Source of the DNA: Caulobacter sp. CCH9-E1
Lineage (GTDB): Bacteria > Pseudomonadota > Alphaproteobacteria > Caulobacterales > Caulobacteraceae
Length of the DNA: 55,451 bases
Direction of reading: 5' to 3'
NCBI RefSeq assembly: GCF_001556515.1
Contig: NZ_LSJA01000018.1
Coordinates: 1 to 55,451, forward strand
The translations under genes were made by a program, and so were the position numbers. The number at the start of each line of letters is the position of its first letter. Positions within the stretch are counted from its first letter, which is position 1. A model generated the notes under the pieces. That model saw only the letters and a list, made by a program, of their open reading frames with translations. It ran no database searches and was not told the DNA's origin. Positions 15,682 to 44,148 of this stretch are shown in pieces.

Positions 15682-17216
15682 GCGTCCCAAGGCACGAGCA
15701 GGCCGACGCGAGGCCGGCGTCGGCCACGCTGCGCGCGCGTCGCATGGGGCTCACCGCGGCTGGCGGCGACATGATCGCGGTGATGCGGCACGACTGCCCG
15801 GTCTGCCGGTCCGAGGGCCTGGGGTCGCGCGCCCAGGTCGTCCTGCGCGCCGGCGGCCGCGAGGCGGTGGTGTCCTTGTTGCACAGCTCGGGCGACACGC
15901 CAGACCCCGGCGAGATCGGCCTTTCCGAGACCGCATGGGCCCGGCTCGGGGTCAAGGCGGGCGACCGCGTGGAGGTCGCCCACGCTCCGCCGTTGGCCTC
16001 GCTGCGGGCGGTGCGCCGCCGGATCTATGGAGAGCGCCTGAGCCAGGCGGCCTTTTCGGCGATCGTCGCGGATATCGCCGAGCATCGCTATAGCGACGTC
16101 CACCTCTCGGCGTTCGTCACCGCCTGTTCGGCGGCGCCGCTCGATCAGGCCGAGACGATCGGACTGACCAAGGCCATGGTCGAGGTCGGCGAGCAGTTGA
16201 GCTGGCCTGGGCCGATCGTCGTCGACAAGCACAGCGTCGGCGGCTTGCCGGGCAACCGCACCACGCCGATCATCGTCTCGATCATGGCGGCCGAAGGCCT
16301 GGTCATGCCCAAGACCTCCTCGCGCGCGATCACCTCACCGGCCGGCACCGCCGACACCATGGAGGTTCTGGCGCCCGTCGACCTCGACATCGCCGCGATC
16401 CGCCGGGTGGTGGCGCGCGAGGGGGGCTGCATCGCCTGGGGCGGGGCGGTTCGGTTGAGCCCGGCCGACGACGTGATCATTGGCGTCGAGCGGGCGCTCG
16501 ACATCGACGCGGTCGGCCAGCTGGTGGCCTCGGTGCTGTCCAAGAAGATCGCCGCCGGCGCGACCCACCTGGTGATCGACGTTCCTGTGGGACCGACCGC
16601 CAAGGTGCGGAGCCTGGAGGCCGCGCGGGATCTCGAGGCGGCGCTCACCTCGGTGGCCGCCGCCTTCGGCCTGCGCACGCGGGTGATGTATGGCCCTGGG
16701 GCTGAGCCGATCGGACGCGGCATCGGGCCGGCGCTGGAGGCGCTGGACATACTGGCCGTGCTTCAAGGCGAGCCCGGCGTCGAGGATCTCGCCCATAGGG
16801 CCTGTGAACTGGCCGGGGGATTGTTCGAGCTGGCGGGCGTGGCGGCACCTGGCGCTGGCCTCGCGCGCGCGCGGCAAAGCCTCGAGAGCGGCCGCGCCTG
16901 GGCCAAGTTCAAGCGCATCTGCCAGGCCCAAGGCGGCATGCGCTCGCCGCCGGTCGCCCGCTTCCAGCGAGACCTGACCGCGCCCTCCAGCGGCCGGATC
17001 GCCAGCATCGACAACCGCAAACTCGCGACCGTCGCCAAGCTCGCGGGCGCGCCGATGGCCAAGGCGGCCGGGGTGGCGGTCCACGCCCGGCTCGGCCAGT
17101 CGATCGTCGCGGGGTCGCCCTTGTGCACCCTTCACGCCGAGAGCCCCGGCGAACTGGACTATGCGGCCGCCTTCGCCTTGAGCGACGGGGCGATCTTCGC
17201 GATCGCGGCGCCATGA
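15678..17216 (+). CDS. Thymidine/AMP phosphorylase-family enzyme
   Basis: A 512-residue nucleoside or nucleotide phosphorylase. The DKHSVGGLPGNRTTPII and MPKTSSRAITSPAGTADTME segments resemble archaeal AMP phosphorylase (NMP + phosphate to ribose-1,5-bisphosphate + base) more closely than E. coli DeoA. The first 100 residues add a small domain with CPVCR. GTG at 15678 overlaps the hydrolase stop, and its stop overlaps prs. The substrate (nucleoside or monophosphate) cannot be decided here. Annotated bacterial members are called putative thymidine phosphorylases. Confidence 0.85.
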   Translation: MSVPRHEQADARPASATLRARRMGLTAAGGDMIAVMRHDCPVCRSEGLGSRAQVVLRAGGREAVVSLLHSSGDTPDPGEIGLSETAWARLGVKAGDRVEVAHAPPLASLRAVRRRIYGERLSQAAFSAIVADIAEHRYSDVHLSAFVTACSAAPLDQAETIGLTKAMVEVGEQLSWPGPIVVDKHSVGGLPGNRTTPIIVSIMAAEGLVMPKTSSRAITSPAGTADTMEVLAPVDLDIAAIRRVVAREGGCIAWGGAVRLSPADDVIIGVERALDIDAVGQLVASVLSKKIAAGATHLVIDVPVGPTAKVRSLEAARDLEAALTSVAAAFGLRTRVMYGPGAEPIGRGIGPALEALDILAVLQGEPGVEDLAHRACELAGGLFELAGVAAPGAGLARARQSLESGRAWAKFKRICQAQGGMRSPPVARFQRDLTAPSSGRIASIDNRKLATVAKLAGAPMAKAAGVAVHARLGQSIVAGSPLCTLHAESPGELDYAAAFALSDGAIFAIAAP

Positions 17217-18097
17217 CGCCGCCGATCGTCTTCGCCTTGGACGGCGGCGAGCGCCTGGCCCAAGCCCTTGGCCCAGCGCTCGGCGCGGAGGCAGGGGTCC
17301 TGCTGCAGCGCCAGTTTCCAGATGGCGAGACCTACCTTCGGATCGACAGCGACGTCACCGAGCGCGATGTCATCCTGGTCTGCGGCCTCGAGCGTCCGGA
17401 CGCGAAATTGCCGCCGCTGCTCTTCGCGGCGGACACGCTGCGCGAGCTTGGCGCGCGCGGGGTGGGCCTGATCGCGCCCTATCTGGCCTACATGCGCCAG
17501 GACACCCGTTTCCATCCGGGCGAGGCGGTCACGTCGCGTATTTTCGCGGCGGTGCTCTCGCGCCACCTCGACTGGCTGGTGACCGTCGATCCCCACCTGC
17601 ACCGCCATCACGCCCTGGCGGAGATCTACCGAATCCCCAGCCAGCTCGTTCACGCCGCGCCGCTCATGGCGTCGTGGATCAGGCGGAACGTCGCCCGACC
17701 GGTGATCGTCGGGCCCGATCTGGAGAGCGAGCAGTGGGTGGCGCAGGTGGCGGCCGGCGCCGACGCGCCGTTCCTGGTCTGCCAAAAGCAGCGGTCCGGG
17801 GATCGTGAGGTCGACATCTCGATCCCCAACGCCGGCGCCTTCCTGGGCCGCCAAGCCGTGCTCGTCGACGACATCGCCTCGTCGGGCCGCACGCTCGCCG
17901 TCGCGGCCCGCCAGCTCAAGGCCCTGGGTTTTGCGCCGCCGGACTGCGTCGTGGTGCATGCGCTGTTCGCCGGCGACGCCGCCCAGGTCCTGGGCGAACA
18001 CGTCGCGCGCATCGTCAGCACCAACACGGTCGCCCATGCGTCGAACGCCATCGACATGACGCCGGCGATCGCCCAGGCCGTGCGCGCCCTGCTGTGA
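17213..18097 (+). CDS. prs: Ribose-phosphate pyrophosphokinase (PRPP synthetase)
   Basis: Makes PRPP from ribose-5-phosphate and ATP. It has 294 residues, slightly shorter than housekeeping Prs. PYLAYMRQDTRFHPGEAVTS and VDPHLHRHHAL match the ATP/Mg region; AVLVDDIASSGRTL is the PRPP-binding loop. ATG at 17213 overlaps the preceding stop (ATGA). Its position behind a nucleotide phosphorylase suggests a dedicated salvage copy; the housekeeping copy should lie elsewhere. Confidence 0.9.
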   Translation: MTPPIVFALDGGERLAQALGPALGAEAGVLLQRQFPDGETYLRIDSDVTERDVILVCGLERPDAKLPPLLFAADTLRELGARGVGLIAPYLAYMRQDTRFHPGEAVTSRIFAAVLSRHLDWLVTVDPHLHRHHALAEIYRIPSQLVHAAPLMASWIRRNVARPVIVGPDLESEQWVAQVAAGADAPFLVCQKQRSGDREVDISIPNAGAFLGRQAVLVDDIASSGRTLAVAARQLKALGFAPPDCVVVHALFAGDAAQVLGEHVARIVSTNTVAHASNAIDMTPAIAQAVRALL

Positions 18098-26632: not shown

Positions 26633-27895
26633 TCACGCCCTTTCCCCGGCTGGATGGACCGGTGTCGCCGTCCGGCGCCATATCGCCGGCAGAAGCGCGA
26701 GCAGACCGAGCGACAGCCAGCCGATCGCTTCGACGACGGCCGCTTGCCGATGGGGTGACACGACGGCGAGCGACATGGGCGCCAGCGCCTGGCCGAGGCT
26801 CGCGGCTGTATGCTGCAGCCCAAGCATGACTCCAGAGGGCCGCATGGGGCCGCTGATCCAGAAGCTCGTGACCAGCCGAAGACTGGCTGAGCTCCAGCCG
26901 GCGACGGCGATGAGACCGGCCATTTCGACCACGGTCGTTCCAAACCGAAAGAGAAACAGCGACAGGGCTAGAAGCGCGAGCGTGAGGCAGGCCAGGCGTC
27001 GAGGCGCGGTCACCAGCCAGGTGACGCGGGTGTGGAAAAGCTGAGCCGCCAACATCGCCAGCCCGCAGAGACTGAGCATCCCGGCGATCGCCTCGCGGCT
27101 CAGCGCGCCCTCGGAGCGGGTCACGAGCAGGCTGACATGCATGGCGGCGAGTCCGCCGCCGCCGACGATGGTGACAAGCAGGAGGACAAGCGTGACGACG
27201 CGCGGCGGGGCTTGCAGGCGACGTCCCTCGGGACGGGCGGCACAGCGGGCCGGCAAGCGCACAATGCCGGTCGTCAGCGCCAGCGCCAGCACGGCGATGA
27301 CGAGCGCGAGCACCAACAGCGGCGTGCGGGGAAAGAGCGACGCGGACGCTTCGGCGAGCAGGGGGCCGAACAGGTCGCCAAGAAACATGAAGGCCGTCAG
27401 CCAGGTGAAACGCCTCGCCTGCTCGTCCCGGCCACCGGGTGCGAAGTTCGTTGACAGCAGCGCCAGCGGGATGATGGCGGCCGCGGACAGCCCAGCCAGC
27501 AAGCGAAGTCCATACAGCATGGGGAGCGGGACCGCCCCGACCGGCGCGGTCGCCAGCGCGAGGACGACCAGGGCCGTGCGCAGAATGATCCGGTAGTCGA
27601 TGCGGTCGGCGAGCCATCCCCAGAGCGGCGCGAAGACGAGCGCCGCCAGCGGGTGGGCCGCCGTCAAACTCGCGACATGGACATCGTGGATGCGCAGCGC
27701 CAAGTCGGCCTGGCCTCCGTCGACGAGGGTCGGGAGAAAGGCGAGGACGGCGGTCTGGCCCGCAGACGCCGCCGCGACCGCGAGAAGCAACAGGATCGAC
27801 GCAGCCGTCTGGCTCCGGCCAGGGCTATCGTCCGCCGCAGAACACGTCAGGCCGTCTTCCGGTCGCCAAGGCGCCGCGCAGCGCCTCACCACCAT
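26633..27895 (-). CDS. MFS transporter
   Basis: A 420-residue major-facilitator protein with about 12 membrane helices. The loop between helices 2 and 3 reads GWLADRIDYRIILR, the family's conserved G-x3-D-R-x-G-R-like motif. There is a long cytoplasmic loop near residue 225. The start at 27895 overlaps the copB stop by ten bases, so it belongs to the copAB operon. The substrate is unknown. The first 30 residues are polar, and a later start is possible. Confidence 0.82.
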   Translation of the reverse strand: MVVRRCAAPWRPEDGLTCSAADDSPGRSQTAASILLLLAVAAASAGQTAVLAFLPTLVDGGQADLALRIHDVHVASLTAAHPLAALVFAPLWGWLADRIDYRIILRTALVVLALATAPVGAVPLPMLYGLRLLAGLSAAAIIPLALLSTNFAPGGRDEQARRFTWLTAFMFLGDLFGPLLAEASASLFPRTPLLVLALVIAVLALALTTGIVRLPARCAARPEGRRLQAPPRVVTLVLLLVTIVGGGGLAAMHVSLLVTRSEGALSREAIAGMLSLCGLAMLAAQLFHTRVTWLVTAPRRLACLTLALLALSLFLFRFGTTVVEMAGLIAVAGWSSASLRLVTSFWISGPMRPSGVMLGLQHTAASLGQALAPMSLAVVSPHRQAAVVEAIGWLSLGLLALLPAIWRRTATPVHPAGERA

Positions 27896-28839
27896 GATCG
27901 CAAGCCGACAACCACCCGATGCTCGGCCGGGCGCTGGCGATCGGCACGTCGGAAGTCGGCGGTGTCGTCCAGCGCCCGCTCCCAGACGAAGCCGACATAG
28001 GGCGCGAATTTCCGCGAGACCTCGTAGCGCAGCCGAGCGCTCAGCTCGACGTTGCTGAAGCCGCCGCCGAGCTCACGGTCGGTCGAGCGCTTGGAATAGA
28101 GGTTGGTTTCGACCTGCGGGGTCAGGATGAGGCGATTGGTGAAGCGGACCTCGTAGGCGCCCTTGGCGCGGGCGCCGAGGCGGCCGTCGTCGCCGACGTA
28201 GCCGGTCAGCTGGACATCGAACCAGTAGGGCGCCAGGCCCTCGACGCCGGCGGCGAGCCAAGTGGTCGCCCCCTTGCCGAGATCCTGACGAACGCCCAGC
28301 AACGTGCCCCAGAACGGGCTCTTGCTGCGCCACCACAGCGCCTCGACGCTGCTCTCCGGATCGAGGCGATCCTTGGAGTTCTTGAGGCCCTGGCTGCGCA
28401 GCCAGAGCTTGCTGTCGTCCTGGCCCTGGGTGACGAGGACGGTCCAGCCGACGCCCTGCCCCTCGTTGCCGCTGGCGAACTCCAGTTCGTCAACGAGAAC
28501 CTTGGGGATCGACAGCTTGTCGGCCATCTCGTAGCCCGGCAGCGTCGAATTGCGATAGCCGTCCGCATAGTCGTCGGAGTTGCGGGCGTCCGGCGGAGCC
28601 TTGCCGCCCTGCATCCGTCCCATGTCCATGGTCATGCCGCCGGCGGGCGTCCCCGCGCCGGACATATCCATGCCCGCGTGATCCGCAGGCGCCGCGGGGG
28701 AGGCCGTTGGGGCCGGGCTCGGCGGCGGTGGCGCGGCGTGCTGATGGGGGGCGTCCTGGGCGATTGCGGGCGCGGCCACGGCCGAAACGCTCAGAGCCAA
28801 GGCGAGCAGAGACGCTCGCGAGAGGGCCAGACGGGTCAT
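27886..28839 (-). CDS. copB: CopB/PcoB outer-membrane copper resistance protein (copy 1)
   Basis: An outer-membrane beta-barrel that works with CopA. It has 317 residues with signal peptide MTRLALSRASLLALALSVSAVA. The N-terminal mature region is rich in Pro, Met and His (DHAGMDMSGAG, GGMTMDMGRM). The barrel starts near YEMADKLSIPKVLVDELE and ends with an aromatic residue (GLRSWW). The start overlaps the copA stop (ATGA). The second copy at 43108-44148 has a longer Met/His-rich insert. Confidence 0.93.
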   Translation of the reverse strand: MTRLALSRASLLALALSVSAVAAPAIAQDAPHQHAAPPPPSPAPTASPAAPADHAGMDMSGAGTPAGGMTMDMGRMQGGKAPPDARNSDDYADGYRNSTLPGYEMADKLSIPKVLVDELEFASGNEGQGVGWTVLVTQGQDDSKLWLRSQGLKNSKDRLDPESSVEALWWRSKSPFWGTLLGVRQDLGKGATTWLAAGVEGLAPYWFDVQLTGYVGDDGRLGARAKGAYEVRFTNRLILTPQVETNLYSKRSTDRELGGGFSNVELSARLRYEVSRKFAPYVGFVWERALDDTADFRRADRQRPAEHRVVVGLRSWW

Positions 28840-30524
28840 GCGACGACCACCTCCCGGAACATGCCGGCCGCCATGTGGTAGAGCAGATGACAGTGGAAGG
28901 CCCATCGCCCCATGGCGTCGGCGGTGACGCGAAAGCTGATCCGCTGGGCGGGCTGGACCACCACGGTATGCTTGCGGACCTGGAACGCGCCGTCCGGGCC
29001 TTCGACATCGCTCCACATGCCGTGGAGGTGCATCGGGTGGGCCATCATCGTGTCGTTGACGAGAACGATGCGCAGCCGCGCGTTCGGCTTGAAGTGGAGC
29101 GGACGGGAATCGTTCAGCTTGATCCCGTCCAGCGTCCAGATGAAGCGCTCCATGTTGCCGGTGAGGTGCAACTCGATCTCACGCTCCGGCTCGCGAGGAT
29201 CCGGATCGCCGCCGGGCGTGCGAAGGTCGGCCAGGGTCAGCACCCGCCAGGACCGCTCGCGCAGGCCCGCGCCGGGATCGTCGAGATTGGTGCGCGGATA
29301 GTCGACGCGCATGTCGGTGTTGGCGCCGTACTCGGTGCGCGCGTGACGCGCCTTCGGGGGCGTGTCCGCCATGCCGTGGCCGGCGTGTTCGCCGCCCATG
29401 GCGACCATGGCGCCCATCATGTCGACCGGATCGAGCCAGGTCCGCGCATCGAGCGCCGGCGTCGGCGCCGTCATGCCGGGCGCTGGGGCGATGACGCCGC
29501 GGGCGAAACCCGTCCGGTCGATCGATTGGGCGAAGATCGTTCGGGCGCCCTCGGGCATGACGAACTCGACATCGTAGGTTTCGCCCGGTCCGATCCGGAA
29601 CTCCTCGACCGTCACCGGCTCCACCGGCTGGCCATCGGTCGAGACGACGGTCATCGCGACGCCGGGAATGCGCACGTCGAAGAAGGTCGCCGTCCCCGCC
29701 CCCACGAACCGGAGGCGAACTCGCTCGCCGGGGGCGGCGATCGCCGTCCAATTCCCGGCCGGCGGCGTTCCGTTCATCAGGTAGGTGTAGGTGGCGGCGG
29801 AAACGTCGCTGTAGTCGGTCGGGTTCATCCGCGACCGGTTCCACATCCGCCGCCGCGCGAGGGCCTCGCCGAACCCCAGCTTGCCCACATCCTTGAGGAA
29901 GTCTCCGGCGGTCGGCTGCGCGAAATTGTAGTAGCTGCTCAGCTTCTTGAGGTTCGTGAAGATCTGCAGCGGCGGTTCGTCCGACCAGTCGCTCAGCAGG
30001 ATGGCGTAGTCCCGATCGGGCCCAGGTCCGGTCGGCGCGCGCGGCTCGACGATGATCGCGCCATAAAGCCCGGTTTGCTCGGCCAAGGTGTGCGCGTGAT
30101 ACCAGTAGGTGCCCGCCTGACGCAGCTCGAAGCGATAGGTGAAGGTCTCGCCGGGCGCGATCCCGGGAAAGCTGATGCCTGGTACGCCGTCCATCTCGGC
30201 GGGCAGGATGACCCCGTGCCAGTGGATGCTGGACATCTCCTTGAGGCGGTTGCGGACGCGCAGGGTGACGGTGTCGCCCTCGCGCAATCGCAGCACGGGG
30301 GCGGGCACGGCGCCGTTCACCGCCGTGGCGATCCGACGCTTGCCGGTGAAGTTGACCGGCAGTTCGGCGATCTCGAGATCGAATTCGGTCCCGCGCAATT
30401 CGGCGGTCGCGGCGGCGGCGGGGCCCGCCAGCAGCGCCGGCGAAACTCCGGCCACCGCCCCGCTGACCGCCAGGCCCTGGACGAAGCGGCGCCGTGTGGC
30501 CGGCAAGGTAGGACTGTCGAACAT
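28836..30524 (-). CDS. copA: CopA/PcoA periplasmic multicopper oxidase (copy 1)
   Basis: A Tat-exported multicopper oxidase thought to oxidise Cu(I) to Cu(II) in the periplasm. It has 562 residues with the Tat signal TRRRFVQGLAVSGAVAG. Copper-ligand motifs are all present: SIHWHG, TYWYHAHT, AHPMHLHG and AFHCHLLYHMAAGM. The Met-rich segment (PVDMMGAMVAMGGEHAGHG) is short compared with copy 2. It is transcribed ahead of copB with overlap. The ADH gene lies just upstream on the same strand. Confidence 0.95.
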   Translation of the reverse strand: MFDSPTLPATRRRFVQGLAVSGAVAGVSPALLAGPAAAATAELRGTEFDLEIAELPVNFTGKRRIATAVNGAVPAPVLRLREGDTVTLRVRNRLKEMSSIHWHGVILPAEMDGVPGISFPGIAPGETFTYRFELRQAGTYWYHAHTLAEQTGLYGAIIVEPRAPTGPGPDRDYAILLSDWSDEPPLQIFTNLKKLSSYYNFAQPTAGDFLKDVGKLGFGEALARRRMWNRSRMNPTDYSDVSAATYTYLMNGTPPAGNWTAIAAPGERVRLRFVGAGTATFFDVRIPGVAMTVVSTDGQPVEPVTVEEFRIGPGETYDVEFVMPEGARTIFAQSIDRTGFARGVIAPAPGMTAPTPALDARTWLDPVDMMGAMVAMGGEHAGHGMADTPPKARHARTEYGANTDMRVDYPRTNLDDPGAGLRERSWRVLTLADLRTPGGDPDPREPEREIELHLTGNMERFIWTLDGIKLNDSRPLHFKPNARLRIVLVNDTMMAHPMHLHGMWSDVEGPDGAFQVRKHTVVVQPAQRISFRVTADAMGRWAFHCHLLYHMAAGMFREVVVA

Positions 30525-33275: not shown

Positions 33276-33635
33276 TTACATGTCCTTCATGGGCATGGCG
33301 GGATCCTTGGCGTCCTTGGGAGCCATGGGTTTGCCTTTCGGGGCCATCGGCTTGTCCATGCAGCAGCCCTTCATGGGCTTCTTGGCGGCGGGATCCTTGG
33401 GCGGCGTGGCCGGCATGTTCGCCATCCCCTGTTGATGGTCCTTCATCATCTGGTCGTGCATCTGCTGGCCGCCATGGTCCATGCCCTGCATGTGGGCGTG
33501 GTCCGGCGGGGTCTGGGCGGAGGCGGCCGGCGCGGGCTGGGTCTGGGCCTTGGGCGCGGGGCCGTCGGCGAATGCGGCGGTCCCCATGGCCAGAAGGCCG
33601 ACAGCGCCGGCCACGACTGCGATCTTGCGCATCAT
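33276..33635 (-). CDS. Met/His/Lys-rich exported copper-binding protein
   Basis: A 119-residue product with signal peptide [22 protein letters not shown]. The mature part is low-complexity: [20 protein letters not shown], then [18 protein letters not shown], and it ends AMPMKDM. The spacing of Met, His and one CC pair suits Cu(I) buffering in the periplasm. The PMKDM tail also occurs in the lipoprotein at 37970-38350. GGAGATC precedes the double ATG; 33632 is an alternative start. It has its own upstream TACGTA and a strong terminator. Confidence 0.7.
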
Positions 33636-33731
33636 TTCTGATCTCCAACTTATGACGTTCGCGTCCGATGGCGTCGTCTGCATCTCTAACGGCGTGACGC
33701 TTGCAATGCCCGCAATTGGCGGCCGCGCGTA

Positions 33732-33753: not shown

Positions 33754-34200
33754 TCAGCGCGACATCTGTCGGCAGCCCGCGGCGCACACCCTGCACGTCT
33801 CCGCGCACTGGGCCATCGGGGCGTCGGCGCGGGGTTTCGAACAGGCCGCCGCGCACAGGTCGCAGGCTTCGGCGCAGGCGCGGCAGAGCACCGGGTGCAG
33901 GGCCGAGCCGCGGAGCATGGAGTTGGCGGTCGCCTGGCACAGCTCGGCGCAGTCGGTGAGCATGGCGATCAGGTCGGGGGCGGCGAGCGCGCCGCCTTGA
34001 CCGAGGGCGTAGGCGGCGGTCTCAAGGCACCGGCGATGGGAAGCCAGGCAGTGATCGATGCAGTCGCTCATCGACATCGCCATGCCGGGCATGGCGTCCA
34101 TGCCCTTCATGTCGTGGGCCTGGGCGGCCGCCGCGGCGGGCTGGGCGGCGCCGGCCGCCAACAGGGCGGCTCCCGTGAGCAGGTCTCGTCGTTGCAGCAT
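33754..34200 (-). CDS. Tat-exported four-helix-bundle copper-storage protein (Csp1-like)
   Basis: Stores many Cu(I) ions inside a four-helix bundle lined by cysteines. It has 148 residues. The Tat signal is MLQRRDLLTGAALLAAG; a short Met-rich linker (MKGMDAMPGMAMSMS) follows. The bundle then carries 14 cysteines in CxxxC patterns, such as SDCIDHCLASHRRC, LCRACAEACDLCAAAC and QCAETCRVCAAGC. Export by Tat matches methanotroph Csp1. It is followed 118 bases later by the Met/His-rich gene. Confidence 0.9.
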   Translation of the reverse strand: MLQRRDLLTGAALLAAGAAQPAAAAAQAHDMKGMDAMPGMAMSMSDCIDHCLASHRRCLETAAYALGQGGALAAPDLIAMLTDCAELCQATANSMLRGSALHPVLCRACAEACDLCAAACSKPRADAPMAQCAETCRVCAAGCRQMSR

Positions 34201-34230: not shown

Positions 34231-34632
34231 TCAGACCCGCGGTGAGGAAGGTTCGCGGCCCGTGGCCCTGGCCATGCGCGTGTCCTCCCAGGGCCAGTGG
34301 CCGTTGATCTCGACGCCGAGCGAGATGCTAAGGAAGGTGCGCACGAAGACCAGACCGGCCAGGACGATGAGATCGTCCAAGGTCGGGTTGATGACGAGCG
34401 ACTTGACGATGTCGCCGGCGACCAGGAATTCGAGGCCAAGAAGGATGCTTCGGCCGAGGGCGGACCGGAACGCGCCATAGGCCTTGGCCCGGTCGCCCGA
34501 TCGGGCCCGCAGGGCGAACAGGATCGTCGCCAGCGCCGCGCCGCTGAGGATGGTCAGCGTGCCCGCCAGCTCGAGGATGATCACCGCGAGCCTGAAGAAG
34601 GCGCTGAGCCAGCCGGACTCAATGGTGATCAT
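34231..34632 (-). CDS. DUF1622 membrane protein
   Basis: A 133-residue protein of DUF1622 with about three membrane helices (11-43, 66-82 and 88-104). The segment ARSGDRAKAYGAFRSALGRS, followed by LLGLEFLVAGDIVKSL, is typical. The function is unknown in the family. Its start overlaps the end of the seven-haem cytochrome gene by 14 bases, so it belongs to the same transcript. It could help assemble or anchor the electron-transfer proteins, which is inference. Confidence 0.8.
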   Translation of the reverse strand: MITIESGWLSAFFRLAVIILELAGTLTILSGAALATILFALRARSGDRAKAYGAFRSALGRSILLGLEFLVAGDIVKSLVINPTLDDLIVLAGLVFVRTFLSISLGVEINGHWPWEDTRMARATGREPSSPRV

Positions 34633-35335
34633 ACCAGCCTCGGCGGCGGATGTTGTTGAAGCTGTCGGTGGTGTGACAGGCGTAGCATTGTTCGACGCGC
34701 GCCTTGGAGCCGGCGGCGCGCTGGGAGACCATGCTGAAGTGCTCCATGAAATGACTGGGCGGCGCGGTGTGGCACTCCGAGCATTGCGTCGAGCTGACCG
34801 ACGGATGCCGGAAGTTGGGAACCTTCCAACTGCTGGTCGCGTGGCAGCTGGCGCAGTCCTGGCCGAAGAGTCCCAGATGCGGATCGCGGACGGAATGGCA
34901 GCTTGCGCAATTGAGCGCGGCTTCGGGCGGCAAGGCGTGCGGATTGGGTGGCGAAACAGCCGGCCCTCGCCACACCGCCGGATCGAGCAACGCCTGATGG
35001 TCCATCTTCACGATGGCGCGCGCGCCTTCGTGCTCGACGTGGCAAGCCGTGCACTCCTTGGCCTGGGCATGGAACTGGGTCGACTGTTTGTTTCCGAAAT
35101 CGGTGCTCGCGTGGCAGGCGACGCAGGTCTTGCTCTCCACGCCCTTGAGAGGCGTGTGGCAACTGGCGCACTGCGCGCCGAAGGCTTGGTGGGCCGGCGA
35201 CAGGGGGCCTGGCGCGACAAGCTGAGCCACCGGTCCGGCGCCGGGCGGCGCGCTTGTCTGCATCATCGCCGCGACGCCCAGCAGCGCCAGGCCGGCGGCG
35301 ACAAAGATCCAGTAGAGGAGGCGGTCCCGCATCAT
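34619..35335 (-). CDS. Membrane-anchored seven-haem c-type cytochrome
   Basis: A 238-residue protein with one N-terminal helix (about 7-25) as uncleaved anchor, the rest periplasmic. Seven CxxCH haem sites are at C56, C71, C95, C143, C161, C185 and C217, with extra His (H89, H102, H113, H153, H177, H194) able to serve as sixth ligands. It resembles cytochrome c3/NrfB-type electron carriers. The ATG at 35335 overlaps the stop of the b-type membrane protein. It would accept electrons at the outer face of the inner membrane and pass them to a periplasmic acceptor not identifiable here. Confidence 0.88.
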   Translation of the reverse strand: MMRDRLLYWIFVAAGLALLGVAAMMQTSAPPGAGPVAQLVAPGPLSPAHQAFGAQCASCHTPLKGVESKTCVACHASTDFGNKQSTQFHAQAKECTACHVEHEGARAIVKMDHQALLDPAVWRGPAVSPPNPHALPPEAALNCASCHSVRDPHLGLFGQDCASCHATSSWKVPNFRHPSVSSTQCSECHTAPPSHFMEHFSMVSQRAAGSKARVEQCYACHTTDSFNNIRRRGWYDHH

Positions 35336-36054
35336 AGCCAGCGCAGCCCGAAATAGATGGCCGCGGCGATGTGCAAAAGCAGCACCAGGTAGACCAGCGC
35401 CCCCAGGACAGCGTGCAGCCACCGCCAACGCGACAACAGCCGGTTGGTCGCACCCTCCGCGCGGATGGCGAACTCGGTGTCGGCCAAGGCCGCGGCCAGG
35501 GCCTCGGCCCCATCGGGCGGCGGCGCCGGCGGTTCGCCGGCGACGAAGAACAGCCGCTTCCAGCGGGAAAGCGCAACGGCCGCCGCCGTCGGCGCCGGGG
35601 GCGCCGGCAGGTGGAGATACGCCGCTTGCAGGGACGCCAGCTCGGAGCGGCGGCCGCGCAGGGCCCGCGCCGTCTGCGCCAGCAGGTAGCGGCCGACGAA
35701 GCCGCTGAGGACCGTCAGCAGCACAAGGCCAGTCAGCGTTAGGCCGACGGGGCTGCCGAACTTGTGGGCGGCATGAACCAACCCCAGGATCGGAGCCAGC
35801 ACGCCCGCATACACATGCAGGGCCAGCAGCGTCGGCTTGCTGACGAACCGGCCTGTCCACCGTTCCGCCGCCTTGACGTGCTTGACCACCACATAGGGCA
35901 GGGTCAGCAGCATGAGGACGGCGGCGACGACGCCGATGACGCCGCCGACCAGGCTGCCGGGAAAGCGCGGCGCGACGTGCAGGACGTAGCCCAGCGGAAA
36001 GAGCAGCAGGAAGGCCACAAGCAGGCCGACGGCCATGTCGCCGCGCTCGCGCAT
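35332..36054 (-). CDS. Di-haem b-type membrane cytochrome-like protein
   Basis: A 240-residue protein with about five membrane helices. H80 and H94 in the third helix (LHVYAGVLAPILGLVH) and H214 and H228 in the last helix (LHAVLGALVYLVLLLH) form two pairs, each 14 residues apart. That is the spacing used by bis-His b-haem proteins with one haem near each membrane face. I do not recognise a named family. ATG at 36054 overlaps the reductase stop (TGATG), and its stop overlaps the cytochrome c start. It is the obvious transmembrane link between the two. Confidence 0.75.
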   Translation of the reverse strand: MRERGDMAVGLLVAFLLLFPLGYVLHVAPRFPGSLVGGVIGVVAAVLMLLTLPYVVVKHVKAAERWTGRFVSKPTLLALHVYAGVLAPILGLVHAAHKFGSPVGLTLTGLVLLTVLSGFVGRYLLAQTARALRGRRSELASLQAAYLHLPAPPAPTAAAVALSRWKRLFFVAGEPPAPPPDGAEALAAALADTEFAIRAEGATNRLLSRWRWLHAVLGALVYLVLLLHIAAAIYFGLRWL

Positions 36055-37973
36055 CAGGCCTCCACCACGAGCGGCTGGCCCGTGCTCTTGGCCTGGCAGG
36101 CCAGGATGTAGCCCTTGGCCTTGTCGGCGGGATCCAGGCCGGTCTCCACCGCCATGGTGACCTCGCCCGAAATCAGCCGGGTGACGCAGACGCCGCATTC
36201 ACCCGAGCGGCAGGCATAGGGGATTTCCACCCCCGCGCCCTCCGCGGCTTCCAGGACGGTCTGGCCGGCGGGGAGCGGGGCCGACACGCCCGCCACGGAA
36301 AAGGTGATGGTGGCCGCGGCGACCGCCGGCGTGGGGGGCGCGACGACGCTCGGGGATGACGGCGCGGGGGGCGGCGCCTTGACCTCGAGCTCGGCCGCGT
36401 CGGCGGGCAGCGACGCGGGCCCGAAGGCTTCGGTGTGAAGTTGAGCGTCCGGGACGCCCAGAGCGGCCAGCTCCCTGCGCATCGCGGCCATCATGCCCGG
36501 CGGCCCGCACATGTGAATGCGGCGGCGGGCGATGTCTGGGACCGCGTCGAGCAGCATCTGGCGGGTGAGCGGGCCTTGCGGCCCCAGCCAGACCGTGCCG
36601 GCCGAGCGTCGCATGGCCGCCATCACGTGCAGATTGGAGAACCGCCGCTCGAGCCGCTCGAGCTCCTCGCGGAAGACGAATTCGTCGGTCGAACGGGCGC
36701 CGTACAGGAAGAAGATCTCGCCCGACCAAGCCGTGTCGGTCAGGTAGCGCAGGACCGACATCATGGGGGTGATGCCGACCCCGCCGGCGATCAGCACGAT
36801 GCTGTCGGCGTCGGTTCCGGTGAAGGTGAACGCGCCGAAGGGGCCCGTCGTCTTCAGCAGGTCGCCGACGGCGACCTTGTCGTGCAGAAAGCACGACACG
36901 ACGCCCTGCTCCTCGCGCTTGACCGTTAGCTCGACATAGGCGCGCTGCGTCGGCGAGGAGGCGATGGTGTAGGATCGCCGCGAGGGCTTGCCATCCACCG
37001 GCTCCACCTCGACCTGGAGAAACTGGCCGGGCAGAAAATCGAAGGGCAGCCGATCGGCGGCCGGGTCGGCCAGCCGGAAGGTCTGAATCGTCGGCGTCTC
37101 CCGCACGATCTGGACCACCCGCAACGGGCCAGACCAGCTCCTGGGCTTGCGCAGCGACGCCCCGGCGGGCGGCGCGGCGTTGCTCGGCGTGAGCGTTTCA
37201 GCGCCCGGCTCAACGGCCGCCGCCTGGCGTGGCGAGGCCGTCGCGGTCGCCGGGGCGGGCGCGGGGGCCGTCGACCCGCCGGCGTCGACGATCTTGCGGA
37301 CCCGCCGCAGGCGCGCGACCTGCAGGCCCAGCAGCATCGCGCTGACCATCGCCAGGACGAACATCAGCATGAAATGGGGCGGCGAGACGCCGAGCCACCG
37401 GATCGGCGCCGCGTGCGGCGGCGCGCCCAGGCTCATCTGATCCCGAAACCAGGTGATCGCCGCCGGCTGCGGGGACGCGCCGCGGTCGAGGGCGGCGAGC
37501 GCGGCCGATCCGCTCGCGAAGAGGTCGCTTGCTTCACGCAGGCGCCGCGCCGCGCTCGCCCGGGCGGCCGGATCTTCGGACCGCGCGGCGGCGGAGGCCT
37601 CGGCGGCCATGGCCAGTCCGCGCTCCACGCGCGCTTGGGCCTCGCCCATCAACCGGTTGCGCCCCTCGGCGCTGAGCGACGGGGCGGCGAGCAGTTGTGA
37701 GACGAAGGGCGTGCGCCGGGCGCCATGCTCGCCTTCGCCCTCCATCATCTCGTCCATCATTCCGCTCATGCCGGCTGCCGCGGGGCTCGGCGCGGCGCCC
37801 ATGACGCCGGCGTCCGCCATCGCGCCGCCTTGCGCGCCCGGATGGTGGGCCGCGTGCTCGTCGCCTTCCTGGGCGATGGCCGCCGTCGAAAGCAGAAGGC
37901 AGGCGGCGGCCAGACCCAAGCTCCATCCCTGTCGGCTGGTCGTCCCGCGCATCGGGCTTGCCCTCGTCTTCAC
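36054..37973 (-). CDS. Membrane-anchored FAD/NAD(P)H reductase with C-terminal 2Fe-2S ferredoxin domain
   Basis: A 639-residue composite. A signal or helix (about 17-35) precedes a periplasmic Met/His-rich and helical region (to about 198). A membrane helix (201-220) follows, and RLRRVRK marks the cytoplasmic side. The ferredoxin-reductase module has RRSYTIASSP (flavin), GGVGITPMMSVLRYL and MCGPPGMM (NAD(P)H). The plant-type 2Fe-2S domain uses C588, C593, C596 and C626. GTG at 37973 overlaps the lipoprotein stop. The protein should take electrons from cytoplasmic NAD(P)H and feed the b-type partner. The N-terminal periplasmic sensor-like part is unusual for this fold. Confidence 0.85.
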   Translation of the reverse strand: MKTRASPMRGTTSRQGWSLGLAAACLLLSTAAIAQEGDEHAAHHPGAQGGAMADAGVMGAAPSPAAAGMSGMMDEMMEGEGEHGARRTPFVSQLLAAPSLSAEGRNRLMGEAQARVERGLAMAAEASAAARSEDPAARASAARRLREASDLFASGSAALAALDRGASPQPAAITWFRDQMSLGAPPHAAPIRWLGVSPPHFMLMFVLAMVSAMLLGLQVARLRRVRKIVDAGGSTAPAPAPATATASPRQAAAVEPGAETLTPSNAAPPAGASLRKPRSWSGPLRVVQIVRETPTIQTFRLADPAADRLPFDFLPGQFLQVEVEPVDGKPSRRSYTIASSPTQRAYVELTVKREEQGVVSCFLHDKVAVGDLLKTTGPFGAFTFTGTDADSIVLIAGGVGITPMMSVLRYLTDTAWSGEIFFLYGARSTDEFVFREELERLERRFSNLHVMAAMRRSAGTVWLGPQGPLTRQMLLDAVPDIARRRIHMCGPPGMMAAMRRELAALGVPDAQLHTEAFGPASLPADAAELEVKAPPPAPSSPSVVAPPTPAVAAATITFSVAGVSAPLPAGQTVLEAAEGAGVEIPYACRSGECGVCVTRLISGEVTMAVETGLDPADKAKGYILACQAKSTGQPLVVEA

Positions 37974-38350
37974 ATGTCCTTCATCGGAGCCGATGGGCTC
38001 ATCGGCGCGGCGTCGGGTTGGGGCGTCGTCCCCGTGGCCGCGCCGCCCTGGCGCATGGCGTGGTGATCCATCTCCTGACGATGATGGCGTTCCATCGTCG
38101 CCGCGTCGTGATCGGCGTCATGTTGCCCGGCGGCGTTGTTCGAAGGCGCCGTCGAGCCGCCGACGCCGGGATCCGGATCGGCGGCGCTGGGGACCGGGGC
38201 CGCGGCGGGCGACGGGGCCGGGGCCTGGACCGAGGCCGCGGGCGGCGGGGGCTCAGCGCCCTTGTCGCCGCAGGCGGTGAGGGCGAGCGCCGCGGCGCCG
38301 ATCACAAGCGCCTGGATGGGCGCGCGAAGTGTGTGGCGGATGTCGATCAT
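37970..38350 (-). CDS. Met/His-containing lipoprotein
   Basis: A 126-residue product. MIDIRHTLRAPIQALVIGAA leads to the lipobox LALTAC with the lipidated Cys. An Ala/Pro linker is followed by QHDADHDAATMERHHRQEMD with HHAMRQ and the tail PMSPSAPMKDM. It is probably a periplasmic copper ligand. I chose ATG at 38350 because GGAGGAAC precedes it; an upstream in-frame ATG at 38374 lacks one. It is the first gene of the run to the reductase (GTGA overlap). The PMKDM tail is shared with 33276-33635. Confidence 0.7.
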   Translation of the reverse strand: MIDIRHTLRAPIQALVIGAAALALTACGDKGAEPPPPAASVQAPAPSPAAAPVPSAADPDPGVGGSTAPSNNAAGQHDADHDAATMERHHRQEMDHHAMRQGGAATGTTPQPDAAPMSPSAPMKDM

Positions 38351-38482: not shown

Positions 38483-38932
38483 TCAGAGCGCCTCCCGCGG
38501 TGCGTCGCCGCGGGCGTCCGACCGCCGGACCCGTCTTTCGGCGAGGAAGGCCAGGATCGGACAGTCCGAGGCCGCCACGTCCATCGGGCAATCGTCGGCC
38601 AGCGCGCTGAGCACGTCACGGATATCCGACAGCCGCTGAATGCGGCGTTCGGCGTCGCGGATCTTCTCGCGGGTGATCTCCAGCACCGCCGACGCCTTGG
38701 CGGTGTCGGAGGCTTGAAGCGCGAGCAGGTCGGCGGTTTCGGCGAGCGTGAAGCCGAGCTCCTGCGCGGCCCGGATGAAATGGAGCCGCAGGAGGTCGGC
38801 GTCCTCATAGACACGGTAGCCGGCGCCGGTCCTGCCCGGATCGCGCAGCAGGCCGGTGCGCTCGTAGTACCGGATCGTATCGCGCCGCACGCCGGCGGCT
38901 GCGGCGAACGCGCCGATCTTGAAGGTCGTCAT
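38483..38932 (-). CDS. CueR-like MerR-family regulator
   Basis: A 149-residue MerR-family protein. The wHTH is FKIGAFAAAAGVRRDTIRYYERTGLL. The metal loop has C115 and C124 (DDCPMDVAASDCPIL). There is no Cys in the dimer helix where mercury- and zinc-type members have one, which points to monovalent Cu/Ag sensing. ATG at 38932; an in-frame upstream start at 38968 is possible. It lies directly upstream of the lipoprotein/conduit operon on the same strand, its likely target. Confidence 0.85.
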   Translation of the reverse strand: MTTFKIGAFAAAAGVRRDTIRYYERTGLLRDPGRTGAGYRVYEDADLLRLHFIRAAQELGFTLAETADLLALQASDTAKASAVLEITREKIRDAERRIQRLSDIRDVLSALADDCPMDVAASDCPILAFLAERRVRRSDARGDAPREAL

Positions 38933-39048
38933 GATACTCGTCGCCTCGCTCGTTGGACGAAAGCCCAAGGTCAGCGGAGGGGCGCGCCCGCCGGTCGCTC
39001 CGGCGAGACGGCGTGGGCCATCCCGCCGCTGGCGAACCGATCGCCCGC

Positions 39049-41155: not shown

Positions 41156-41269
41156 CTTTTTTCGCCCGCCGGCGAGGGGGGCGACGGTTTGGCGCGTAGC
41201 CACCTAAGAGATCGCGTCGCGGCCGTCCCTCACGGCCTGCCGCCGGCGCGTCATCGTCAAAGGGCTGTC

Positions 41270-43111
41270 ATGCTTCGATCCAGCGCGGCTTTCGATCGCC
41301 GTCGTTTTCTCCAATCGCTCGCCGTCCTCGGCGGCGGCGCCACCCTGGCGAGCCTGCTGCCGTCCTGGGCGCGCGCGGCGGGCGATCCCGGCCGCGCGCC
41401 GGCCGCCCTTTCGGGCGAGGACATCAAGCTGACCATCGGCCACACGCCGATCACGGTCGACGGCAAGGCCGGCCACGCCGTGACGATCAACGGCACGGTT
41501 CCTGGCCCGCTGATCCGGCTGAAGGAAGGCCAGCATGTCCGCCTGTCGGTGACCAACACGCTCGACGAGGACACCTCGATCCACTGGCACGGCCTGCTCG
41601 TGCCCTTCCAGATGGACGGCGTGCCCGGCGTCAGCTTCCCGGGCGTCAAGCCCGGCGAGACCTTCACCTACGAATTCCAGGTCCGCCAGGCGGGCACCTA
41701 TTGGTACCACAGCCATTCGGGCCTGCAGGAGCAGATGGGCCACTATGGGCCCATTATCATCGATCCGGTCGGTCCTGATCCGGTGGCCTTCGACCGCGAG
41801 CACGTCGTGGTGCTGTCGGACTTCAGCCGCCTGCACCCGCACCAGATCTTCAAGAAGCTCAAGCAGCAGAGCGGCGCATTCAACTACCAGCGCCAGACCC
41901 TCGCTGGGCTTCTGGCCGGCAAGGACCAGACCCTGGCCGAGCGCCTGGACTGGGCCAAGATGCTGATGGACCCGACCGACATCTCCGACGTCACCGGCGC
42001 GGCCTACACCTTCCTGGTCAATGGCCATGGCCCCGCGGACAACTGGACGGCGCTGTTCGCGCCCGGCGAGCGCGTGCGCCTGCGGTTCATCAACGCCGCG
42101 GCCCAGTCGGTCTTCAACGTCCGCATCCCGGGGCTGCGCATGACCGTGGTCGCCGCCGACGGCCAGCACGTGCGGCCCGTCGAGGTCGACGAGTTCCAGA
42201 TCGGCAACGCCGAGACCTATGACGTGATCGTCCAGCCCGCCGAAGACAAGGCCTTCACGATCGTGTCGGAGTCGGTCGACCGCTCTGGGTTGGGCCGCGC
42301 CACCCTGGCGCCGCGGCTGGGCATGAGCGCCGAGGTCCCGCCGCCGCGCGAGCGGCCGCTGACCACCATGCGCGACATGGGCATGGATATGGAGGGAATG
42401 GACATGGGGGGCATGGACCATGGCTCCACGGACATGTCCGGCATGGATCACGCGGCCATGGGCGCCAAGGCCGCGACCCCCGCGCCCGGCATGGCGCCGC
42501 CGCGCCAGCGCGGAAGCGACGTGATGGGCAAGATGGACAACGGCGGCATGGACATGTCCATGCGCAATCCGGACAACGCGCCTCAGGTCAGGCTCGGTCC
42601 GGGCGTGCAGTCGATCGCGCCGATGCCGATGGATCGCACCGGCGAGCCTGGCCAGGGCCTCGAAAGCGTCGGCCACCGGGTCTTGGTCTATCGCGACCTG
42701 GTGGCCCTCGAGCCGAATCCCGACCCGCGCGCCCCGGAGCGATCCCTCGAGATTCACCTGACCGGCAACATGGAGCGGTTCATGTGGGGGTTTGACGGGC
42801 GCAAGTTCAGCGATAGGCCGCCGCCCTACGCCTTCCGCCACGGCGAGCGGGTCCGGGTCACCCTGGTCAACGACACCATGATGGCCCACCCCATCCACCT
42901 GCACGGCCACTTCTTCGAACTGGCCTTCGGACCGGCGGGCCACATGCCGCGCAAGCACACCGTCATCGTCCTGCCCGGCGGCCGCGTCAGCTTCGACTTC
43001 ACCGCCGAGACCGGCGACTGGGCCTTCCACTGCCACATGCTCTATCACATGCACGCGGGGATGTTTCAGGTCTTCAGCGTGCGCGACACCCCCGCGGAGG
43101 GCGCGCGATGA
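41270..43111 (+). CDS. copA: CopA/PcoA multicopper oxidase (copy 2)
   Basis: A Tat-exported multicopper oxidase (signal DRRRFLQSLAVLGGGATLAS), 613 residues. Ligand motifs SIHWHG, TYWYHSHS, AHPIHLHG and AFHCHMLYHMHAGM are complete. It carries a much longer Met-rich insert than copy 1 (MRDMGMDMEGMDMGGMDHGS and further repeats, about residues 367-430), as in plasmid-type PcoA. ATG at 41270 follows AAAGGG. A frame upstream to 41189 is open but lacks a ribosome site. copB follows with an ATGA overlap. Confidence 0.95.
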   Translation: MLRSSAAFDRRRFLQSLAVLGGGATLASLLPSWARAAGDPGRAPAALSGEDIKLTIGHTPITVDGKAGHAVTINGTVPGPLIRLKEGQHVRLSVTNTLDEDTSIHWHGLLVPFQMDGVPGVSFPGVKPGETFTYEFQVRQAGTYWYHSHSGLQEQMGHYGPIIIDPVGPDPVAFDREHVVVLSDFSRLHPHQIFKKLKQQSGAFNYQRQTLAGLLAGKDQTLAERLDWAKMLMDPTDISDVTGAAYTFLVNGHGPADNWTALFAPGERVRLRFINAAAQSVFNVRIPGLRMTVVAADGQHVRPVEVDEFQIGNAETYDVIVQPAEDKAFTIVSESVDRSGLGRATLAPRLGMSAEVPPPRERPLTTMRDMGMDMEGMDMGGMDHGSTDMSGMDHAAMGAKAATPAPGMAPPRQRGSDVMGKMDNGGMDMSMRNPDNAPQVRLGPGVQSIAPMPMDRTGEPGQGLESVGHRVLVYRDLVALEPNPDPRAPERSLEIHLTGNMERFMWGFDGRKFSDRPPPYAFRHGERVRVTLVNDTMMAHPIHLHGHFFELAFGPAGHMPRKHTVIVLPGGRVSFDFTAETGDWAFHCHMLYHMHAGMFQVFSVRDTPAEGAR

Positions 43112-44148
43112 AGGCCTCGCTGATCGCCCTCTTGCCGGTCCTGTGGGCCGCGCCGGCCCTGGCCCAGCACGCCGGCCACGCCGGCGCGCCAGCCGCGCCC
43201 AGTTCCAAGCCTGCGCCGGCGGCCCCGCCTCCAGCCGCCGACCCCCATGCCGGACACGACATGGGCGCCATGCCGGCCATGGCCATGCCTCAGACGCAGG
43301 TCGCGCCGGCGACCGACCCCCACGCCGGCCACGACATGGGCGCCATGCCCGGCCTGGCTGTCTCCGGTCAATCGGAACGCCCGGCCGAAGCGATGGGACC
43401 GCCGCCCTTGCCCGATCACGAAACAGCTCCGCCGGCGCCGCCCACCGACCATCTGGCCGACAGGGTCTTCGATCCGGCCGCCATGGACCGGGCTCGCGCC
43501 GTGCTCCGGCAGGAGCATGGCGGCGCCCAGGTCTCGCAGGTGATGGCCAACCTCCTGGAATACCGCGCCCAGGCCGGGGGCAACGGCTATCACTGGGACG
43601 GCGAGGCTTGGTTCGGCGGCGACCTCAATCGCCTGGTGATCAAATCCGAGGGCGAGGGCGGCCGTCACGGCGTTCAGGCCAGCGAGGTGCAGGCGCTCTA
43701 TTCCAGGCCCGTGGCGCTCTATACCGACTTGCAGGTGGGCTTGCGCCAGGATGTCGAGCCCAAGTCGCGCACCTATGCCGCCGTCGGGTTCGAAACCCTG
43801 TTGCCCTACTGGATCGAGGCGGGCGGAGCGGTGTTCGTTTCCAGCAAGGGCGATGTCCTCGCGCGCGCCGAAGGGGCGATCGACTGGCGCCTCACCCAGC
43901 GCCTGATCCTGCAGCCGCGCACCGAACTCAACTTCGCCGCCCAAGACATCCCCGCAGCGGCGATCGGTTCGGGGCTCTCGAGCGGCGAGCTCGGATTGCG
44001 CCTTCGCTATGAGGTTCGGCGCCAATTCGCGCCATATGTCGGCGTCGCCCTATCCAAGCGGTTCGGGCGCGCCGCGGACTTCGCCCGGCTGCGCGGCGAC
44101 GAGGTCACCGAGACCAGTTTCGTGCTCGGCCTGAGGGCCTGGTTTTGA
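43108..44148 (+). CDS. copB: CopB/PcoB outer-membrane protein (copy 2)
   Basis: A 346-residue product with signal peptide MKASLIALLPVLWAAPALA. The mature start contains two near-identical DPHAGHDMGAMP repeats and other Met/His clusters. The barrel domain begins near LLEYRAQAGGNGYHWDGEAW and ends FVLGLRAWF. ATG at 43108 overlaps the copA stop. It would sequester copper at the outer membrane alongside CopA. Confidence 0.94.
   Translation: MKASLIALLPVLWAAPALAQHAGHAGAPAAPSSKPAPAAPPPAADPHAGHDMGAMPAMAMPQTQVAPATDPHAGHDMGAMPGLAVSGQSERPAEAMGPPPLPDHETAPPAPPTDHLADRVFDPAAMDRARAVLRQEHGGAQVSQVMANLLEYRAQAGGNGYHWDGEAWFGGDLNRLVIKSEGEGGRHGVQASEVQALYSRPVALYTDLQVGLRQDVEPKSRTYAAVGFETLLPYWIEAGGAVFVSSKGDVLARAEGAIDWRLTQRLILQPRTELNFAAQDIPAAAIGSGLSSGELGLRLRYEVRRQFAPYVGVALSKRFGRAADFARLRGDEVTETSFVLGLRAWF

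Follow-up and report, generated by a model that had tools for sequence, protein, structure and literature searches.

A candidate NAD(P)H-fed electron conduit to the periplasm in a copper-resistance island of Caulobacter sp. CCH9-E1

The three-gene module and its closest described relatives

The window analysed here, a stretch of 55,451 nucleotides of Caulobacter sp. CCH9-E1 (contig NZ_LSJA01000018.1, positions 1 to 55,451), contains three overlapping genes for a putative membrane-tethered reductase, a five-span membrane protein (hereafter b) and a membrane-anchored seven-haem cytochrome (hereafter c), the products of which probably form a transmembrane electron conduit. Several described systems resemble parts of this module. 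The inner-membrane proteins of PCC3 and PCC4, as presented in the available text of He et al. 2017 (PMC5566968), have five spans, two WX3HX13H motifs and an SGXXG motif, are encoded beside multihaem cytochromes, and were proposed to carry electrons across the inner membrane. The same text mentions shorter inner-membrane proteins encoded beside multihaem c genes, mostly with 'another redox protein' and mostly without a porin; going by this description, they may overlap with the present module. Members of the ferric reductase domain (FRD) superfamily (FRE, NOX, YedZ/MsrQ, STEAP) pass electrons from NADPH through FAD to transmembrane b haems, and their long forms have four histidines on transmembrane helices 3 and 5 (TM3 and TM5), according to the accessible part of PMC3591440. 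Membrane-bound bacterial reduction of Cu(II) has been proposed for CcoG/FixG, which uses two tetranuclear iron-sulfur clusters, and the eukaryotic cupric reductases are haem-containing membrane proteins driven by NADPH or ascorbate (PMC7558416, in its available sections). Among the PepSY_TM metal reductases FoxB and CrpH, FoxB hands electrons to a periplasmic ferrisiderophore; the available portion of PMC13038864 gives it two periplasmic PepSY domains and an unknown electron donor.

The three genes of the module in the window are:

36054..37973, minus strand: FNR-type reductase (PF00970, PF00175 and PF00111, all above their gathering scores)
35332..36054, minus strand: b, a five-span protein and putative di-haem b conduit (two HX13H pairs, H80/H94 and H214/H228)
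34619..35335, minus strand: c, a membrane-anchored seven-haem class III-type cytochrome c (seven CXXCH; PF09699, PF14537, PF14522)

The open reading frames (ORFs), Pfam domains, histidine pairs 14 residues apart and seven CXXCH motifs agree with the original prediction, a note made from the sequence before any database search. Its path of three components, along which electrons would leave cytoplasmic NAD(P)H, traverse two b haems and reach a multihaem c in the periplasm, is supported by the domains, the histidines and co-conservation. Its further statement that no described system has this set holds for the NAD(P)H-linked set of three genes, of which no description was found in the open literature (preprints, subscription papers and supplements lay outside the scope of the search), but not for its parts: pairs of an inner-membrane protein with a multihaem c are known as PCC3/PCC4 (PMC5566968, in part), and two of the genes resemble orf1 and cyt of an Alteromonas hydrogenase cluster (PMC3102683, in part).

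The likeness of b to the PCC3/PCC4 proteins extends to the five spans, HX13H pairs on TM3 and TM5, an SGXXG motif on TM4 and an adjoining multihaem c gene (PMC5566968, available text). Alignment of b by hhalign to four PCC3-like inner-membrane proteins, retrieved through a cytochrome search (L180 to L183), gave a probability of 98.75 and an E value of 1.5e-16; judged by this match, b is a remote homologue of these proteins, the label 'PCC3-like' having been assigned in this analysis from motifs and neighbours. At these four loci an FRD-like inner-membrane protein is followed by a 21- to 24-haem protein and another with 19 to 34 CXXCH motifs, L183 having a further multihaem ORF that is cut and retains 8 CXXCH, and no reductase match was found in their wider flanks. 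In contrast, a reductase is present at every locus of the module longer than 5 kb (111/111), c has 7 haems as against a median of 21 in the periplasmic cytochromes of PCC3 (PMC5566968, available text), the TM3 tryptophan is absent, a search for further multihaem proteins found none, and copper genes are often nearby. The module shares with the FRD superfamily the route from NADPH through FAD to transmembrane b haems and the four histidines on TM3 and TM5 (PMC3591440, in part), and differs in its separate polypeptides, its 2Fe-2S domain and its c-type multihaem exit. The likeness to CcoG/FixG is limited to the proposed role, and no Fer4 family was found in a Pfam scan of the three proteins with E values up to 1.

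Conservation and distribution of the module

Relatives were retrieved through b as 11 plasmid loci and 80 genome loci, the latter being the best 80 of 408 relatives, and all 91 match first the reductase, then b, then c. With 20 further loci, each of the 111 loci longer than 5 kb matches all three proteins (E <= 1e-15), and 110 of them keep one strand and the conserved order by best hits; only L154 departs from this, because it covers several copies on one plasmid and its best hits come from different copies. Greedy clustering at 80% identity of b gave 47 clusters. L001 is practically identical to the window, L012, L013 and L153 are close to it, and the set includes duplicates of the same plasmid or genome (L010, L151, L152, L154), broken or cut genes (L003, L011, L086, L148) and loci that end at contig ends. 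Sequences too short for residue counts were dropped, namely 3 of 47 reductases (L003, L086, L148) and 1 of 47 cytochromes (L084), and in alignment A8 the N-termini are trimmed in two of the four rows.

Most loci had been picked by b, and the search was therefore repeated from the cytochrome. Among 199 planctomycete genomes, five matched c with E below 1e-80 (4/198 without the known carrier), as did six of 398 genomes of the window's phylum (5/397 without the known carrier), and in all 11 strongly matching genomes b and the reductase adjoin the cytochrome. Nineteen known carriers yielded 21 strong matches to c, with b adjacent in 21 and the reductase within a short flank in 20, besides an isolated c fragment on a Bradyrhizobium plasmid and one weak match. 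Co-occurrence of the three genes, a test set in advance, thus held from both sides (111/111 loci; 11/11 genomes).

The module was found in six phyla, with members in the Alpha-, Beta- and Gammaproteobacteria, Bacteroidota, Planctomycetota, Nitrospirota, Hydrogenedentota and Myxococcota, the last represented by a record titled Deltaproteobacteria that a tree tool placed there. It is rare and patchy across genomes. At E <= 1e-20, b was present in 2 of 229 gammaproteobacterial and 2 of 148 Nitrospirota genomes, counts that include the centre genome, and among 240 alphaproteobacterial genomes there were six matches at 1e-10, two of them strong and one of these the nearest genome; the centre genomes of the planctomycete, window-phylum, gammaproteobacterial and Nitrospirota sets are themselves known or nearest carriers. 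Plasmid pBBta01 of Bradyrhizobium BTAi1 (L010, L154) bears three b-c pairs and the lone c fragment, and the annotated reductase of its third pair is short and lies beside an IS3 element.

The reductase has the domain order FAD_binding_6, NAD_binding_1 and Fer2, which is that of PaaE/GbcB-type FNR proteins with a C-terminal 2Fe-2S domain. It scores under the cut-offs of both the PaaE and GbcB families; its best NCBIfam model is GbcB (227.5 bits against a cut-off of 500), a score too low for the GbcB enzyme itself, and its sole match in PHROGs is ferredoxin. A hydropathy scan showed an N-terminal segment, a span at residues 201-219 followed by an Arg-rich stretch, and a marginal peak within the NAD domain. 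By topology rules, a signal-like segment and a single span with such a stretch behind it should place an arm from about residue 35 to 198 in the periplasm and the redox domains in the cytoplasm. All four 2Fe-2S cysteines are kept in 43 of 44 aligned reductases. Just beyond the signal-like segment, 43 of 44 homologues have a periplasmic HxxHH motif, often [DE]HxxHHP; by position, H40 and H44 are present in 44/44, H43 in 43/44, and M69 and M72 each in 42/44, while H200, where the span meets the periplasm, is kept in 44/44. This arm is the best argument from sequence for a metal acceptor, since a cytoplasmic dehydrogenase needs no such arm and a substrate-binding metal reductase could use one; it neither names the metal nor amounts to proof.

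The four histidines of the two pairs in b are invariant in 47/47 clusters, which was the second test set in advance for the original prediction, and two further histidines predicted to face the periplasm, H26 and H97, are likewise invariant (47/47). H80 and H214 should lie close to the cytoplasmic side and H94 and H228 close to the periplasmic side. Five transmembrane helices are indicated both by hydropathy and by the helices of an AlphaFold2 (AF2) model (mean pLDDT 85.8), and the predicted cytoplasmic loops are richer in K+R per residue in 42 of 47 representatives. A sequence search of the PDB with b gave no match, and b is not assigned to the FRD superfamily because it scores 14.4 bits against PF01794 (E 0.042), short of the gathering score of 28. 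The SGXXG motif on TM4 is SGFVG in the window protein, with S117 in 35 of 47 clusters (T in the other 12), G118 in 47 and G121 in 44. W210 on TM5 is kept in 44/47, and the equivalent position on TM3 is W in 1/47 and L in 42. In three planctomycete-type loci, b has a long C-terminal extension (L080:6167-7801, L085:2888-4450, L088:1983-3602), which in L080, the only one scanned, matches DUF547 (PF04784, 2.2e-16).

The cytochrome exceeds the cut-offs of PF09699 (36.9 bits against 20.6), PF14537 (34.5 against 25) and PF14522 (28.7 against 24.8), and has a single N-terminal span by hydropathy. All seven CXXCH motifs are invariant in the 11 rows of alignment A2 and in 51/51 of alignment A7, and 43 of 46 alignable cluster representatives have exactly seven (L011 has 3, L061 and L143 have 6 each). 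Eight further histidines are kept in all 11 rows of alignment A2 and would suit bis-His ligation. The cytochrome profile also drew eleven distant matches (E 3e-16 to 4e-25), treated here as a separate family, having no reductase match in short flanks; a b-like ORF lies beside seven of them, and the seven proteins inspected have 8 to 24 CXXCH motifs. Four of the eleven belong to the PCC3-like loci L180 to L183.

The proposed path of electrons and its acceptor

In the mechanism that best accounts for these features, the three gene products would form one inner-membrane complex. Electrons from NAD(P)H would enter on the cytoplasmic side, first at the FAD and then at the plant-type 2Fe-2S cluster of the tethered reductase, cross the membrane by way of two b haems, an inner one held by H80 and H214 and an outer one held by H94 and H228, and pass from the outer b haem to the anchored seven-haem cytochrome on the periplasmic side. 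In the window's operon the final acceptor would be Cu(II), which the His/Met-rich reductase arm and a small His/Met-rich lipoprotein encoded upstream would hold close to the membrane, and the resulting Cu(I) would be taken up by the Cu(I) carriers of the island, namely a Csp1-like store, CusF and an RND exporter. Cu(II) is favoured as acceptor because of the reductase arm and because Cu(I) is the form handled by Csp1 storage, CusF and Cus-type RND export. The cofactor sites are evident from sequence and conservation and the order follows of carriers from the chemistry of the families; direction, acceptor, haem loading and topology are what we infer. The conduit is well supported and the copper role plausible, the latter stronger than before and unproven: Cu(II) reduction as the task of the conduit in this operon falls a little short of an even chance, and the mechanism as a whole, as the best explanation available, stands evenly balanced between right and wrong. 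If true, it would explain the presence of haem-heavy redox genes in copper islands of conjugative plasmids, and would offer a connection between NAD(P)H and a multihaem cytochrome of the periplasm that bypasses the quinone pool, which would be useful for engineered electron transfer.

The copper context was examined 9 kb either side of b with strict markers (multicopper oxidase, CopB, Cu-ATPase, DUF411, Csp, CusF, DUF305), and 20 windows of 18 kb from eight module-bearing genomes served as controls; the marker queries were drawn from loci of the module itself, and more distant copper genes could therefore have gone unnoticed. Strict markers occur in 28 of 47 clusters and in 1 of 20 controls (Fisher p 1.8e-5), and in 18 of the 34 clusters beyond those of Caulobacter and sphingomonads (p 2.5e-4). 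A broader set, extended by Cus RND parts, periplasmic sensors and CueR-like regulators, gives 33/47 against 3/20. On a tree of b and c the copper label changes 12 times, 11 of these changes being forced by well-supported branches, which indicates repeated association or loss and not a single hitch-hiking clade, and the label is somewhat clustered (24 of 500 shuffles were equally low). The copper linkage is real and repeated. A DUF1622 gene also lies within 9 kb in 17/47 clusters and in 0/20 controls.

Several observations weigh against Cu(II) as the acceptor or leave the complex less well defined. The copper link of the original prediction does not extend to every relative: 19 of 47 clusters have no strict marker within 9 kb, and the His/Met motif of the reductase is present with or without copper neighbours, so that it may serve another metal or another role. 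On an Alteromonas plasmid (L008:8935-18351) the module lies directly upstream of a NiFe hydrogenase cluster, which suggests another partner or reverse flow; Bradyrhizobium locus L010 has pentose-phosphate genes in place of copper genes, and several planctomycete loci have neither copper markers nor hydrogenase nor pentose-phosphate genes. The multicopper oxidases of the island would be expected to run the chemistry backwards, from Cu(I) to Cu(II), so the two activities would need separating by oxygen supply or by place. A structure search with the b model returned no decisive family, the AF2 model of the cytochrome (pLDDT 62.8) is too poor for a fold search, and no biochemistry of the three-gene set was found in the literature.

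One alternative is a general overflow valve, which would vent NAD(P)H electrons into a periplasmic c-haem pool for any acceptor and help under respiratory block (copper, low oxygen) without being a copper reductase itself. Carbon and energy genes lie within 9 kb of the module in 20 of 47 clusters and 0 of 20 controls, the set (gnd, zwf, tal, thymidine phosphorylase, glutamate dehydrogenase, adhP, ALDH, ATP synthase beta, DUF3141) having been picked after the loci were inspected, and some of these neighbours could supply electron donors. Glutamate dehydrogenase recurs in planctomycete-type loci (L075, L081 and others), with five Pfam members among 96 neighbours of nine loci. Such a valve nevertheless leaves unexplained both the near-invariant periplasmic His/Met motif and the repeated Csp, CopB and multicopper oxidase neighbours, and we consider it unlikely. 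Flow in the reverse direction, from a periplasmic low-potential donor such as H2 via hydrogenase through the c haems to form NAD(P)H, would fit the Alteromonas locus, c3-type cytochromes being classic partners of hydrogenases. It is improbable here: neither Cu(I) nor Fe(II) is a strong enough reductant to form NAD(P)H, and a hydrogenase marker was found in L008 only, among 47 clusters. The order in L008 (b, c, hypothetical protein, HyaD-type protease, HupH-type protein, small subunit, large subunit, HypC and so on) matches that of the Alteromonas macleodii HynSL cluster, orf1/cyt/orf2/hynD/hupH/hynS/hynL/hyp (PMC3102683), so that orf1 and cyt probably correspond to b and c of the module family. 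Orf1 and Cyt, mapped in this way, were reported to be dispensable for maximal HynSL activity in Escherichia coli; this cluster differs further in its hydrogenase, not copper, context and in that no reductase gene is named in the constructs, as given in the available part of that paper. The accessible text of PMC8478169, on copper-resistance genes of Alteromonas, places hydrogenase genes on a copper-bearing plasmid island and makes no mention of a cytochrome or reductase.

That the module is the inner-membrane half of a PCC3-like conduit for extracellular electron transfer is slightly less probable again. Such a role would draw on the remote homology of b to PCC3-like proteins, with HX13H pairs, SGXXG and the WX3H of TM5 in common (PMC5566968, available text), yet no extracellular multihaem partner was seen, there being no second ORF with at least three CXXCH in the window or in the 47 cluster stretches, some of which are cut by contig ends. 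The NAD(P)H reductase present here also found no match at the PCC3-like loci L180 to L183. A NOX-like enzyme making superoxide outside the inner membrane is highly improbable, because superoxide production inside a copper operon would presumably be harmful and because, to our knowledge, a seven-haem c cytochrome beyond the outer haem is no part of NOX; nor do we know of c haems in FoxB. The succession of NADPH, FAD and a haem-carrying membrane domain does follow the plan of NOX and FRE (PMC3591440, in part). Returning to Cu(II) reduction, we offer tentatively, as rather doubtful in so full a form, that the module may be a dedicated periplasmic cupric reductase that draws on NAD(P)H and is widespread and often carried by plasmids, with a split NOX-like core whose outer haem would feed the seven-haem c, with copper held on the near-invariant His/Met arm, and with an origin in a PCC3-type pair that became coupled to an FNR reductase.

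The copper island and its plasmid setting

The window as a whole is a copper-resistance island. A Pfam scan identified two CusF proteins, an RND permease, an OEP outer-membrane efflux protein, CopC, CopD, two multicopper oxidases, two CopB proteins and a heavy-metal-resistance (Metal_resist) protein. The module lies within a run of eight co-directional minus-strand genes (38968 to 33276), in the order regulator, lipoprotein, reductase, b, c, DUF1622 protein, Csp1-like protein and Met/His-rich protein, of which those outside the module are:

38483..38968, minus strand: MerR/CueR-type metal-responsive regulator, heading the co-directional run (Pfam MerR_1, 2e-18)
37970..38350, minus strand: small Met/His-rich lipoprotein, putative periplasmic metal binder (ORF with lipobox LTAC)
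34231..34632, minus strand: DUF1622 membrane protein, co-operonic (PF07784, 1.1e-21)
33754..34200, minus strand: Csp1-like Tat-exported Cys-rich protein, putative Cu(I) store (14 Cys, RR signal, TIGR04401 1.4e-9)
33276..33683, minus strand: small Met/His-rich protein, probably exported, putative copper binder by its sequence

The regulator matches NCBIfam MerR/CueR/ZntR models below their equivalog cut-offs, the match of the Csp1-like protein to TIGR04401 is full-length at 38.3 bits against a cut-off of 100, and the last Met/His-rich protein has no family in the Pfam scan. The reductase and b genes overlap by 1 nt, b and c by 4 nt, and c and the DUF1622 gene by 14 nt, successive overlaps that are expected for a single transcription unit. 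For the lipoprotein the ATG at 38350 is the most likely start, the listed ORF extending to 38374, and the reductase overlaps it by 4 nt only if a GTG start at 37973 is used; in the near-identical FWC26 copy, PGAP puts the start of the reductase at a later ATG, 17 nt beyond the lipoprotein stop. No CueR-like dyad was found in the intergenic stretches or upstream of the operon with a pattern that has 4 matches in the window against 3.3 expected.

The 5.7 kb of the operon have a 99.9% identical copy on a conjugative Caulobacter plasmid, and 26 further plasmid records match this stretch at 60-80% identity (77% over 51% of its length for the nine listed). Of the 27 plasmid records with a match, 22 were typed as conjugative. 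In the nearest genome the module lies on a contig of 1.97 Mb.

The multicopper oxidase and CopB genes of the window form two separate pairs on opposite strands (27886-30524 and 41189-44148). At 15531-18097 a pyrimidine/thymidine-phosphorylase-like gene adjoins a ribose-phosphate-pyrophosphokinase-like gene; thymidine phosphorylase genes are near the module elsewhere too (L002, L157, L019, L061, L144), accompanied in L002 and L157 by an annotated pyrophosphokinase.

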